This document shows positions 44,704-50,344 of a stretch of 64,000 nt of DNA, one piece after another (the first letter of the stretch is position 1; every line of letters starts with the position of its first letter). The notes below the pieces were generated by a model. That model saw nothing but the letters and a program-made list of their open reading frames with translations, did no database searches and was not told where the DNA came from. The stretch spans positions 1-64,000 of the forward strand of contig JAJTFK010000008.1 in NCBI GenBank assembly GCA_021298655.1, in the 5' to 3' direction. Source of the DNA: Cryomorphaceae bacterium (lineage in GTDB: Bacteria; Bacteroidota; Bacteroidia; Flavobacteriales; Schleiferiaceae). The translations under genes and the position numbers were made by a program.

Positions 44704-45630
44704 ATGATTAAAACGGCAAGTATTCTTGGCCTAACCCTACTTGGCGCCGTCGCTTGGTCCTGGTTCTACAGCCCCGAACTCGAACCGCTTCAACGGCAAC
44801 TCCTTGACAACCTGATCACTATATGGGCCGGATTCACCGCCTACACCTTCGTCGCCGGAGTCCTCACCAGCAACCACAGCCAAGTGGACCGACTTTGGAG
44901 CACCGTGCCCATCGTCTACGCCGTATACGCCGCCTGGTTTACCCAATGGGACCCCCGCGCCACCTTGATGGCCGGGCTCGTCGGCCTTTGGGGTGCGCGC
45001 CTCACCTTCAACTTTGCGCGCCGCGGAGGCTACAGCTGGCTCCCCTGGAAGGGCGAAGAAGACTACCGCTGGGAAGTCCTGCGCCGCATGCCGCCCCTCG
45101 ATAAACCCTGGGTTTGGCAGCTCTTTCACCTGCTCTTCATCTGCGTCTACCAAATGGGCCTGATCCTGCTCTTCACCCTGCCCATCGCCTACGCCTGGCG
45201 CCCGAGTGCCGGACCCAGCGTGCTCGGCAGCGCTGACCTCCTCTTAGCCCTGCTCATGATCGCCCTCATCGCACTTGAATTCGTGGCCGACCAGCAGCAG
45301 TGGACCTTTCAGCGCGAAAAGCACCGCCGCCGCGCCGCCGGCGAAGACCTCGGACCCGTCTACGGCAAAGGCTTTGTGCACACCGGCCTCTGGGGCCTGT
45401 CGCGCCACCCAAACTACGCCTGCGAACAGTCCATCTGGGTCGTATTCTACCTCTTCACTGGGGCCGCCACCGGCGAATGGCTCAACGCCAGCATCGTCGG
45501 CTGCATCCTGCTCATCCTCCTCTTTCACGGAAGCGCCAACTTCAGCGAAGGCATCAGCGCCGGCAAGTACCCGGACTACGCAGACTACCAAAAGCGCGTG
45601 GCGCGCTTCCTGCCGGGGCTCAAAGGCTAG
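44704..45630 (+). CDS. DUF1295-family (steroid 5-alpha-reductase-like) membrane protein
   Basis: A 308-residue integral membrane protein with about seven hydrophobic segments. Conserved C-terminal features LGLSRHPNY-type (here WGLSRHPNYACEQSIW) and KYPDYADYQKRVARFLP define the DUF1295/ICMT-like family, whose members reduce or methylate lipid-like substrates; the actual substrate is unknown. It is divergent from the acyl-CoA synthetase fusion, which suggests, weakly, a lipid role. Its TAG stop lies in the first unit of an octad array. Confidence 0.88.
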   Translation: MIKTASILGLTLLGAVAWSWFYSPELEPLQRQLLDNLITIWAGFTAYTFVAGVLTSNHSQVDRLWSTVPIVYAVYAAWFTQWDPRATLMAGLVGLWGARLTFNFARRGGYSWLPWKGEEDYRWEVLRRMPPLDKPWVWQLFHLLFICVYQMGLILLFTLPIAYAWRPSAGPSVLGSADLLLALLMIALIALEFVADQQQWTFQREKHRRRAAGEDLGPVYGKGFVHTGLWGLSRHPNYACEQSIWVVFYLFTGAATGEWLNASIVGCILLILLFHGSANFSEGISAGKYPDYADYQKRVARFLPGLKG

Positions 45631-45680
45631 GTGGCTGGTTGGCTAGGTGGCTGGTTAGCTAGGTGGCTGGTTAGCCAGCC
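45625..45680. repeat. Octad intergenic repeat array (7 units)
   Basis: GGCTAGGT, GGCTGGTT, GGCTAGGT, GGCTGGTT, AGCTAGGT, GGCTGGTT, AGCCAGCC: an 8-nt period with a 16-nt super-period. It contains the stop codons of the DUF1295 gene (TAG 45628-45630) and of the convergent glycosyltransferase (TAA, 45655-45657), and codes for the latter's last residues NQPPS. Confidence 0.9.
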
Positions 45681-46545
45681 AGAATTCCTTGAACTTTGTT
45701 CGATAGGGCTTAAAGCGCTCATCTTCCGTTTTTACCTGACTGCACGCAATAATGTTCTGATCGAAGCTAAAGTCTGAATCAGCATACCCAAAAGCGACCT
45801 GCCGTCTATTGCGCTTTAGTTCAAAAAACTCCTCTGTTCGAAAGTAATAGTGATTAAGGAAGCCGCTGGCCTTCGATGGTCGCGCGCCACCATAAAGCAA
45901 AGGTTCATGTGGTCCGAATTGAAAAGAGAAAAACCGATCGCACCTGAAGAACGATTTATATTGAGCATGGGGAGGATATTTTTCTTCTGCTCTGCCTAAA
46001 GAGGCTAAAATCAACGACTTCGTGGCATTAAACGATTCGGGATCTGCTGGACCATAAAACTGCCAATAAAGTCGAACACTTGAATGCTCTTCTACTAAAT
46101 GACTTTCTAAGAAATCCCCTACGGAGTAAAATCCGTCAAAAAAAACAAACTCATCGGTGTCGATTAAGGCTAACCATTTAAAATCGGCCATGAATTTTTT
46201 AACGTATTCATTAAAAAGTGCAACCTGAGTCTGTACCCCACTAAATGGTGTACAATCATGAATTAATGTCACACGAATTCGCACACTTTCAGGAAGATAT
46301 GAATAATCGCCACACACTTCATTATTGTCAATGAGCACAATATGGTCAACCTCTGCCACGAACAAATGGTAAATTAACCATTCGGCTAGGTACTTTTCCT
46401 CGCCCTTAGTAAACGTCAACAAACCGGTATGAAACTTCGGCAAATTATTGGTCCGCGGAATCCTAATCCAATTTGCAAGAAGCAAATAGAGTTGCAGGGC
46501 TTTTAACCACCCCCCCCCCGCTTTAATTAGTCTAGAATAACTCAT
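45655..46545 (-). CDS. Glycosyltransferase (GT2/GT92-like) with in-frame poly-G tract
   Basis: A 296-residue probable glycosyltransferase of the 'glycosyl transferase family 92/DUF23-like' group. The motif IDTDEF at 128-133 would bind metal and nucleotide sugar, and LLTFTKGEEKYLAEWLIYHL (first part LLTFTKGEEKYLAEW, 42-56) is characteristic of the group. No signal peptide. The gene is clearly A+T-richer than all neighbours and uses AAA/TTT/ATT codons, a sign of recent transfer. Codons 9-12 contain a run of ten G, so slippage could switch the gene on and off. Sugar and acceptor are unknown; a surface glycan or O-glycan is likely. Confidence 0.8.
   Translation of the reverse strand: MSYSRLIKAGGGWLKALQLYLLLANWIRIPRTNNLPKFHTGLLTFTKGEEKYLAEWLIYHLFVAEVDHIVLIDNNEVCGDYSYLPESVRIRVTLIHDCTPFSGVQTQVALFNEYVKKFMADFKWLALIDTDEFVFFDGFYSVGDFLESHLVEEHSSVRLYWQFYGPADPESFNATKSLILASLGRAEEKYPPHAQYKSFFRCDRFFSFQFGPHEPLLYGGARPSKASGFLNHYYFRTEEFFELKRNRRQVAFGYADSDFSFDQNIIACSQVKTEDERFKPYRTKFKEFWLANQPPS
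46510..46519 (-). repeat. Homopolymer of ten G near the start of the glycosyltransferase
   Basis: Ten C on the plus strand, ten G in the coding strand at codons 9-12 (Ala-Gly-Gly-Gly). In this window I noticed no other homopolymer of this length. A change of one or two bases would frameshift the gene after residue 12. Confidence 0.85.
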
Positions 46546-46717
46546 TTATTCAATTTCAACATTCTTCATTGACGCTAGCGCGTGATGCAAGTTATTGCCG
46601 CCAAGCGCTGTTCACGATAATCCAATAGAACACCGCATTGGCTCATCCATTGTAGCCGAACGACCTTCCCATTAGACTAAGCGTCCGTTGGCCGCGTTCT
46701 TGGTTCAAATTCCATTC

Positions 46718-48031: not shown

Positions 48032-48061
48032 CTAACCAACTAGCCAACTAGCTAACCAGCC
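48022..48061. repeat. Octad intergenic repeat array (5 units)
   Basis: AACTAACT, AACTAACC, AACTAGCC, AACTAGCT, AACCAGCC between the convergent creD and sbtA-like genes. Stop codons of both genes (TAA 48029-48031; TAG on the minus strand at 48048-48050) and the last residues of the permease (WLVS) come from it. Confidence 0.9.
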
Positions 48062-48986
48062 AATAATACCACGGAATCCCCAGCGTCATGTTGACCGGGA
48101 AGGTCAACGCAAGCGCCATGGGCAGGTACACTCCGGGGTTGGCCTCAGGCAGGGCGATGCGCATGGCTGCAGGGACTGCGATGTAGCTGGCGCTGGCCGC
48201 CAGCACGCTCAGCACAAAGCGGGCTTCCGCTGGGGCCCCGGTGACGCTGGAAATCAGGGCCATAAGCGTTCCGTTGACCAAGGGAAGCAGCAGCGCCAGG
48301 GCAAAGGGCTGCCAGCCGGCGGCGAGTAGGGCTTTGATGTTGCGTCCGCTGGACAAGCCCATGTCAAGCAGGAAGACGGCCAAAAAGCCCTTAAACAGGT
48401 CGTTGGTGAAGGGACGAATGCCCTCGGCCTGTACGTCGTCGGTCAGGAATCCGACCAAGAGGCTTCCGAGAACGAGGACCACCGAGCCGTTGGTCAGGGC
48501 GTGGCGCAGCCAAGAATTCGTTCCGCCCGAAGCCCCGGCCCGGCGCGCCAACCAGAGGCCCACGACGATGGCCGGTGCCTCCATGAAGGCCATGACGGCC
48601 ACCATGTAGCCCGGAAGGTGCAGGCCGAGGCGCTCAAGGAAGGTGCCGGCGGCCACAAACGTTACGGCGCTCACCGACCCGTAGGCGGCGGCGACGGCTC
48701 CGGCGTTGGCCACCCCGAGGGAGCGCTTGGCAATCCAAAACACGTAGACCGGAATCAGCACCGACGAGGCGAGGGCCAGGAACAGCACCGCGGTACTGTC
48801 GGGCCGAAGGGCTTCGTGGGCCAGCTCTTGTCCGCCTCGAAACCCGATCGACAAGAGCAGGTAGATCGAAATGAACTTCGACGAGGTTCCGGGAAGCTCC
48901 AGGTCGCTCCGAATGAGGGCCGCAGCAATTCCGAGCAAAAAGAAGAGCAGCGCAGGGCTGGTGAAGTTTTCAAGCAGTAGGCTCAT
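48048..48986 (-). CDS. Sodium-dependent bicarbonate transport family permease (SbtA-like)
   Basis: A 312-residue inner-membrane protein with about ten helices, related to SbtA/DUF897 permeases that import bicarbonate with sodium in cyanobacteria. Typical features are the two inverted five-helix halves, FLLGIAAALIRSDLELP near 20-36, and LLSIGFRGGQEL near 49-60. Start ATG at 48986 overlaps the dihydroorotase stop (ATGA). With the SulP/carbonic anhydrase pair 8 kb away it points to active inorganic-carbon supply. A divergent LysR gene lies upstream of the operon. Confidence 0.88.
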   Translation of the reverse strand: MSLLLENFTSPALLFFLLGIAAALIRSDLELPGTSSKFISIYLLLSIGFRGGQELAHEALRPDSTAVLFLALASSVLIPVYVFWIAKRSLGVANAGAVAAAYGSVSAVTFVAAGTFLERLGLHLPGYMVAVMAFMEAPAIVVGLWLARRAGASGGTNSWLRHALTNGSVVLVLGSLLVGFLTDDVQAEGIRPFTNDLFKGFLAVFLLDMGLSSGRNIKALLAAGWQPFALALLLPLVNGTLMALISSVTGAPAEARFVLSVLAASASYIAVPAAMRIALPEANPGVYLPMALALTFPVNMTLGIPWYYWLVS

Positions 48987-50344
48987 GACGTGGGGGCAAA
49001 AAGACAGGATTGGCCGGGCGCCTGAGGGGCCCAAAGGCGTTGATCCGCGTTAAATGCCTCGAAGCCGTTGACAAACGTGGCGACCACGCGGCTTTGAAAG
49101 CGCTTGCGCTCCCAGGGCGACCAGCCGCAGGCGTAGTAGCTGGTGTCGGGCCGTACTTCGGTTCCGCCGTGAGGGTCGACCAGTACAAAGTCGGCCCAGC
49201 ACCCGGGGTCCAGGAATCCGCGTTCGCGCAGCCCAAAGTGCTCCGCCACGCCATGGCTGGTCAGCTGCACCAGCTGAGGCAGCGTCCACTCGCCGCCGTG
49301 CACCCATTCGAGGGCCTGGACCAAAAGGTGCTGAACCGAGGGCGCACCCGAGCAGCCGCAGGGGTAGGGACCGCCCTTCTCGCTCCAGCGGTGCGGAGCA
49401 TGGTCGGTGGCCAGCGTGGCCATCCAGCCCTTGGACGCCGCCTGGCGCAGGTAGTCGCGGTCGGTGCTCGCCTTGACCGACGGATTCCACCGAATGGCAG
49501 CGCCCAAACGACCGTAGTCGCCCTGGCTAAAGGTGGCGTGGTGCACACAAAGCTCGGCGGTTGCCGGCAATCCCTCGGCGGCGGCGGCGCGGATCAACTG
49601 CACCTCGCGGGCGGTCGAAACGTGCAAAACGTGAATGGGCCGCGGAACCGCGCGCTGCACCTCGAGCACGCGCTGGGTCGCCGTCACGCAGGCCTCCTCG
49701 TCGCGAATTTGGCTGTGAAGGCGCACGGGCAGCTCCGCGCCGAATTCGCGCTGGGCCTCCAGCAGCTGGGCCTGAATCCGAACTTCGTCTTCGCAGTGCA
49801 GCGCCAAGAGCTTGGGCACCTCGAGCAAAACCCGCTCGAGCACTTCGGGGCGGTTGCAGAGCAGGACGTCGCGTTCCTGCATGTACAGCCCGTCGTCGGT
49901 GTAACCGGGAATCTGCGTCGGGTCGATGGCCAGCGCATCCTGCCAGCGCTCGGCGTGCACCCCGGCGTAGAAGGCGTAGTTGGTCCACATGCGCTGCCGG
50001 GCCCGGCGCATTTTGTCGGTCCAGGATTCCACGTTCATGGTGGGCGGAAGCGTGTTGGGCATGTCGAACACCGTGGTCACGCCACCCGCCACCGCGGCGC
50101 GCGATTCGCTGTGCATGCTTCCTTTGGCCGGAAACCCGGGGTCCCGAAAGTGGACGTGGCTGTCGATGACGCCGGGAAAAAGCCAGAGTCCGCGGGCGTC
50201 GAGTTCGCGCGGAGAAGCCCCGGGCGGCAGCGAAATGGAGGGTTCGAGGCGTTCCACACGGCCGCCGCGCACCCAGAGGTCGCAGACCGAGGTGGTGCCG
50301 CGGTGGGTGACGGTCGCCCCCCGCACGATCAGGTCAGGATTCAC
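48983..50344 (-). CDS. pyrC: Dihydroorotase (class I type)
   Basis: Zinc amidohydrolase of pyrimidine biosynthesis, converting carbamoyl aspartate to dihydroorotate. Landmarks are DSHVHFRDPGFPAKGSMHSE (first part DSHVHFRDPG, the metal-binding HxH), GYTDDG, the His-containing HVLHVSTA, and ATDHAPH. I chose the GTG at 50344 because it overlaps the upstream stop as GTGA, the same coupling as purQ; ATG codons at 50353 and 50362 are alternatives that add 3 or 6 residues. Length (453) fits class I. Middle gene of DUF6671, pyrC, sbtA-like. Confidence 0.93.
   Translation of the reverse strand: MNPDLIVRGATVTHRGTTSVCDLWVRGGRVERLEPSISLPPGASPRELDARGLWLFPGVIDSHVHFRDPGFPAKGSMHSESRAAVAGGVTTVFDMPNTLPPTMNVESWTDKMRRARQRMWTNYAFYAGVHAERWQDALAIDPTQIPGYTDDGLYMQERDVLLCNRPEVLERVLLEVPKLLALHCEDEVRIQAQLLEAQREFGAELPVRLHSQIRDEEACVTATQRVLEVQRAVPRPIHVLHVSTAREVQLIRAAAAEGLPATAELCVHHATFSQGDYGRLGAAIRWNPSVKASTDRDYLRQAASKGWMATLATDHAPHRWSEKGGPYPCGCSGAPSVQHLLVQALEWVHGGEWTLPQLVQLTSHGVAEHFGLRERGFLDPGCWADFVLVDPHGGTEVRPDTSYYACGWSPWERKRFQSRVVATFVNGFEAFNADQRLWAPQAPGQSCLFAPTS

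Follow-up and report, generated by a model that had tools for sequence, protein, structure and literature searches.

Poly-G/C tracts within coding regions are well known in Campylobacter, and a poly-G phase-variable galactosyltransferase of Campylobacter jejuni was reportedly described by Linton in 2000. In the passages of PMC6321876 that deal with these tracts, a cut-off of 7 G/C was applied and tract length peaked at 9 (53%) and 10 (26%); the same source gives evidence that every poly-G/C tract with at least eight repeats varies in C. jejuni NCTC 11168. Capsule and glycan genes of Bacteroides use inversion systems for phase variation (PMC11868660, PMC3090145). Homopolymer slippage is already known as a mechanism from Campylobacter, Helicobacter and Neisseria, and little published was found for Bacteroidota: a limited open-access search, with few subscription papers, returned no homopolymer-switched glycosyltransferase from this phylum as judged by title or start of the abstract. 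Ornithobacterium hominis is also a member of the Bacteroidota. Its adhesin genes were assigned a "putative phase variation mechanism", given without detail in the relevant part of the source (PMC13183296).

The window, i.e., the whole stretch of 64,000 nucleotides that was analyzed, contained a single G or C run longer than 7, located at 46510..46519. The plus strand reads C10 at this position, so that the coding (minus) strand carries G10. The run starts at the third base of codon 9 and extends through codon 12 of a 296-aa ORF (45655..46545, minus strand). The ATG at 46543..46545 (minus strand), preceded by the A-rich leader GAAATTGAATAA, is the only start codon of the ORF upstream of the tract, and the N-terminus reads MSYSRLIKAGGGWLKAL. 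The product matched PF13704 (Glyco_tranf_2_4) with 35.8 bits against a cut-off of 27.5 (E 1.2e-8), the match beginning at residue 49. The sequence-only reading had described ten G at codons 9-12 of an A+T-rich glycosyltransferase, and this description proved correct in coordinates, codons and gene family, with the gene on the minus strand and a GC content of 42% compared with 61% for the window. With ten G, the tract lies within the Campylobacter cut-off of 7 or more G/C for phase-variable homopolymers. The closest contig end is 30 kb away, and the contig is unbroken at the position of the tract.

We consider it likely that G10 acts as a contingency site of the slipped-strand (simple sequence repeat) type, switching the translation of the glycosyltransferase, and that the assembly represents the on state. 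In the proposed mechanism, the replicating polymerase would add or drop one G in the tract by slipped-strand mispairing, the frame would be lost after codon 12, the ribosome would stop after 13 or 27 residues and the enzyme would be off, until a further slip restored both frame and enzyme. Tract length would accordingly be expected to vary in the population; the genomes compared comprised one assembly per species, and the locus was seen at ten G only. The enzyme may modify a surface glycan, and switching would then change how phages, predators or a host recognize the cell.

The reading frames were compared in silico for tract lengths of 8-12, and the products were 26, 13, 296, 27 and 14 aa for 8, 9, 10, 11 and 12 G, respectively, so that the full frame was open at 10 G only. 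The frame entered with 9 G ended at a TAA (46503..46505, minus strand) and the one entered with 11 G at a TAG (46463..46465, minus strand; both positions worked out by hand), which bears out the earlier prediction that a slip of one base would frameshift the gene near its start. Slippage of RNA polymerase or of the ribosome, by which a fixed mix of full-length and truncated protein would arise from unchanged DNA, was also considered. Homopolymers can be slippery for both, but the usual transcriptional motif consists of A or T runs, as stated in the sections of PMC3711429 on this subject, and the off frames at this locus yield no useful product. This explanation is therefore regarded as extremely improbable.

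A different objection is that the tract belongs to an untranslated leader, with translation starting at a downstream TTG (codon 21, 35, 42 or 43) and with an effect on mRNA structure at most. In-frame starts past the tract were TTG at codons 21, 35, 42, 43 and 61, GTG from codon 63, and ATG not before codon 119; the Pfam match starting only at residue 49 would also permit a later start. However, apart from the first ATG, neither ATG nor GTG occurs before codon 63, and this ATG with its A-rich leader fits a real start. Homologues were surveyed for the conserved motif K.E....EW, which was matched in 17 of 22 loci; in six of the 17 the open frame lacked an ATG ahead of the motif, and in the other eleven, where an ATG precedes the motif, 20-50 residues lie ahead of it. 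Moreover, from residue 13, directly after the tract, the protein could be aligned with the nearest homologue. On the basis of the N-terminal lengths of homologues, the start-codon survey and this alignment, the ribosome most likely starts at the first ATG and reads through the tract, and a start downstream of the tract is very unlikely. The sequence-only reading had itself raised a real start downstream of the tract as a counter-argument; this was checked and is not favoured, given the homologue leaders of 20-50 residues and the fact that the next starts are TTG.

Within the genus, a single close homologue was found (G017:C17), with 39% identity and an open frame of 293 codons. This homologue carried its own G10, located at codon 215, so that both genus members with the gene (2/2) contain a tract, at different positions (codons 9 and 215). 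In other genera of the family, none of the 21 homologues had a G/C run above 6. A broad search of 395 genomes of the order, a run that also missed the G017 homologue, found no further close homologue. Inheritance of the tract by descent shared with the G017:C17 homologue was considered and rejected on the basis of the different positions. Alignment with this homologue showed the three tract-encoded glycines as inserted residues, while the motifs DTDE, HP, HY and R were kept. The different codon positions and the glycine insertion therefore indicate that the gene gained G10 twice.

Twelve aligned homologues were invariant at D129, D131, E132, K197, P212-H213, H232-Y233 and R236. The DTDE motif (D129-E132; 46150..46161, minus strand), in which D129, D131 and E132 are the invariant residues, is a probable metal-binding DxD and was taken by us to be the DxD of a GT-A glycosyltransferase. 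Since the invariant motifs are kept, the on form of the glycosyltransferase looks intact. Searching solved chains with the alignment profile yielded a galactan synthase (8d3t, E 3.8e-5) and GmaR (22ao, E 0.0023); both are distant and align with the first half of the protein.

Upstream and downstream genes of this locus were compared with those of relatives. A DUF1295 gene (44704..45630, plus strand) forms the left border of an insert that contains the glycosyltransferase and a gene for a creD-like inner membrane protein (PF06123; 46709..48031, plus strand). With the creD start taken as the ATG at 46709, the two genes of the insert are separated by a divergent intergenic region (46546..46708), which presumably holds their promoters. 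The right border is a membrane transporter-like gene (48048..49034, minus strand), the protein of which holds MSLLLENFTSPALLFFLLG and which we take to be a transporter from the look of the sequence. In G010, G017 and G001, the DUF1295 gene was followed directly by the transporter-like gene, without glycosyltransferase and creD between them, and the DUF1295 protein of G010 was 94% identical to that of the window; in G004, G002, G012, G014 and G021, different genes followed DUF1295. Among the 22 genomes of the genus, creD was present in one and the glycosyltransferase in two. The occurrence of the insert between these borders only here and the sparse presence in the genus suggest that the glycosyltransferase was probably acquired. 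Around the glycosyltransferase no glycan gene cluster was found, the neighbours being creD, DUF1295 and the transporter-like gene, and this was counted against the contingency reading. A surface role of the enzyme can be proposed from its family only, because the gene lies outside any glycan cluster.

The length of the tract was compared with several chance expectations. In dinucleotide shuffles of the window, G10 was present in 33 of 100 (mean 0.50), so that this null was not rejected; G10 is unremarkable window-wide by this measure, which was counted against the contingency reading. The dinucleotide null overstates long runs, however, because, from lengths 4 to 7, every additional base lowered the number of G/C runs in the window about four- to eightfold, and none but G10 exceeded 7. 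Markov models of orders 2, 3, 4 and 5, trained on the window with the tract removed, expected 0.11, 0.06, 0.014 and 0.004 G10, respectively. The corresponding models of the gene only, also with the tract removed, expected 0.0003, 0.00001 and 0.003 at orders 1, 2 and 3, and 0 at orders 4 and 5, because too few runs remain in the gene to learn from. Under synonymous choice at the gene's own usage, the exact four codons of the tract had a probability of about 0.001-0.002, which is low yet not negligible across a genome of genes. Across all 45 contigs of the genome (1.60 Mb), a tally derived from pattern searches for G7 and G8 gave 31 G/C runs of 7, four of 8, none of 9, two of 10 and one of 11. 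Under a geometric tail, 0.06-0.24 runs of at least 10 would be expected, and three were seen (Poisson P 3e-5 to 2e-3). The tract is thus unusual by the run-length tail of the genome and by the composition of its gene, and not by the window-wide dinucleotide shuffle.

These figures bear on the view that the homopolymer arose by chance or codon choice (three GGG next to GCG), has no switching role and slips only as a rare accident. Besides the shuffles, this view can draw on a G10 in a housekeeping gene, the 3-dehydroquinate synthase of G008, and on the accidental short tract in a capsule gene of meningococci that a section of PMC11868660 mentions. However, the genome has an excess of runs of 10-11 G with none of 9, an independent G10 occurs in the only close homologue and in none of the 21 others, and the tract glycines are an insertion. 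Chance is therefore considered an unlikely explanation of the tract.

The second coding G10 of the genome was located in a methyltransferase-like ORF (L054 6812-7546, G000:C3) in an A+T-richer stretch; the Pfam match of this ORF was weak (E 0.008) and below the cut-off. A relative in G019 with 84-90% identity reads CAT GGT GGC GGA AGC where the present genome reads GCG GGG GGG GGG AGT. Because these glycines have mixed codons in the G019 relative, the G10 of the methyltransferase-like gene is probably recent in origin. Conversion of three consecutive glycines into 9 G is one possible origin of phase-variable loci according to a passage in PMC6321876. Compared with G019, the methyltransferase-like ORF lacks about 63 residues, in frame; the gene may be inactive, and this was counted against the contingency reading.

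A total of 10 G/C tracts of at least 10 were detected in 7 of the 22 genomes of the genus. Two were in the glycosyltransferase, one in the methyltransferase-like gene, five in an intergenic element, one beyond a SusD-like gene and one in the gene for 3-dehydroquinate synthase. The long tracts of the genus are not all in surface genes, and this was counted against the contingency reading. The tract in the 3-dehydroquinate synthase gene (G10/C10; L064 2034-3215, G008:C29) is a housekeeping counterexample to a surface-only rule. The one beyond the SusD-like gene (G10; L059 9151-9160, G018:C7) stands behind a terminator-like hairpin downstream of that gene, 21 bases from the contig end.

Two of these 10 tracts, against 0.11 expected, were no more than 100 bases away from a contig end. 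Such contig breaks were considered as proof of length polymorphism and taken as suggestive only, since two of ten tracts are concerned and sequencing artefacts do the same. They also bear on the possibility of an assembly error at the glycosyltransferase, in which the true consensus would be 9 or 11 G with the gene off, or the tract would be a sequencing artefact. Poly-G at contig ends, which is typical of short-read artefacts, was also seen in some genomes of the family. However, the tract in the window is far (30 kb) from any contig end, and among lengths of 8-12, 10 alone gives the full frame; an assembly error is thus highly improbable.

The intergenic element was conserved and was found in six of the 88 family genomes, all six in this genus (L055 7337-7465 in G000:C11, L058, L061, L062, L063 and L159). 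In G000:C11, where it carries G11, it stands behind a transporter-like gene with an MFS match below the cut-off. Its tract length was 11 in the present genome and 12, 10, 12 and 11 in G004, G006, G017 and G020, respectively; the tract was missing in G010. In the predicted structure, a stem encloses the tract, and a hairpin and a terminator-like end are also present. Among the 45 predicted pairs, eight had double changes, but the covariation term was near zero (0.03). The element had no Rfam match at the gathering score, and its sub-threshold Rfam matches were taken as chance. It may be a small RNA, so far undescribed, whose G tract varies in length.

In the wider family, G/C runs of at least 10 were present in 30 of 88 genomes. 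SusD-like and T9SS domains encoded by related genomes place the organism probably in the Bacteroidota. Outside the genus, 28 tracts were chosen from the list, one of which (L091) adjoins masked sequence; the selection excluded tracts at contig ends, places not listed and a single run longer than 50 G. The run of over 50 G (G035:C3:214276-214328), in a genome of 8 contigs, is perhaps a sequencing artefact. Six of the 28 tracts were located close behind an ATG, between the ATG and a signal peptide, at the head of large proteins. Two of these were in similar genes of one genome, both with T9SS tails (G10 in G028:C24 and G11 in G028:C27; L119/L120). A G11 behind the ATG was likewise found in a gene with a T9SS tail in G023:C41 (L124), and a G12 behind the ATG of a large protein in G076:C9 (L116). 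The remaining two, in G027:C51 and G027:C199 (L130, L133), had C10 behind the ATG and a common leader. By our reading of the frames, each of the six start-adjacent tracts puts its gene out of frame as assembled, which is what would be expected of off states. The rest of the 28 tracts were intergenic, unclear or inside ordinary genes such as L095, the protein of which presumably resembles a purine-synthesis enzyme. In L122 (1999-2009, G034:C1), a G11 (C11 on the coding strand) was located in a proline stretch just before a CHU_C type IX secretion domain, and a slip in this tract would remove the secretion signal. Enrichment of tracts in surface genes across the family is plausible.

Taken together, the contingency reading of the glycosyltransferase tract was preferred because, of the lengths 8-12, only 10 G opens the frame, because the glycines were inserted with the motifs kept and because G10 recurs in the homologue. 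The excess of long G runs in the genome, the probably recent G10 of the methyltransferase-like gene and the start-adjacent tracts of the family point in the same direction. The strongest support came from the comparison with other genomes. For the family as a whole, whose members are mostly uncultured, we propose tentatively, at somewhat under even chances, that homopolymer slippage and not only DNA inversion serves as a phase-variation system, with tracts recurring in glycan-modifying enzymes and before the signal peptides of secreted, partly T9SS, proteins, and with one genus that would also have a length-variable G10-G12 tract in an sRNA-like intergenic element.

If the proposed switching is true, homopolymer-slippage contingency loci work also in uncultured Bacteroidota with small genomes, and selection may come from phages or grazers instead of an immune system. 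Annotation of such genomes would then label genes in the off state as broken. The idea could be tested from existing metagenome reads, and the recurrence in the family makes such a test clear and cheap.

Compared with known systems, the locus resembles those of C. jejuni in having a run of 9-10 G in a coding region, a frame that is lost with one base and a glycan-modifying product. Campylobacter differs in having many loci per genome and proven switching, whereas the present genome has two coding G10, putative switching and a different lineage; applying the behaviour of Campylobacter tracts to the present organism is thus an extrapolation. In Helicobacter and Neisseria, the homopolymer is also inside the gene and many such genes are for surface components, but these are pathogens with proven loci and the present organism is uncultured and has a small genome. 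The adhesin genes of Ornithobacterium hominis are similar in encoding surface proteins with putative phase variation, and differ in that the mechanism is unnamed there and that adhesins instead of a glycosyltransferase are concerned. The invertible promoters of Bacteroides share with the proposed switch a random on/off control of surface glycans within the Bacteroidota. They act by site-specific DNA inversion, whereas the switch proposed here would act through a homopolymer, for which an invertase is not needed.
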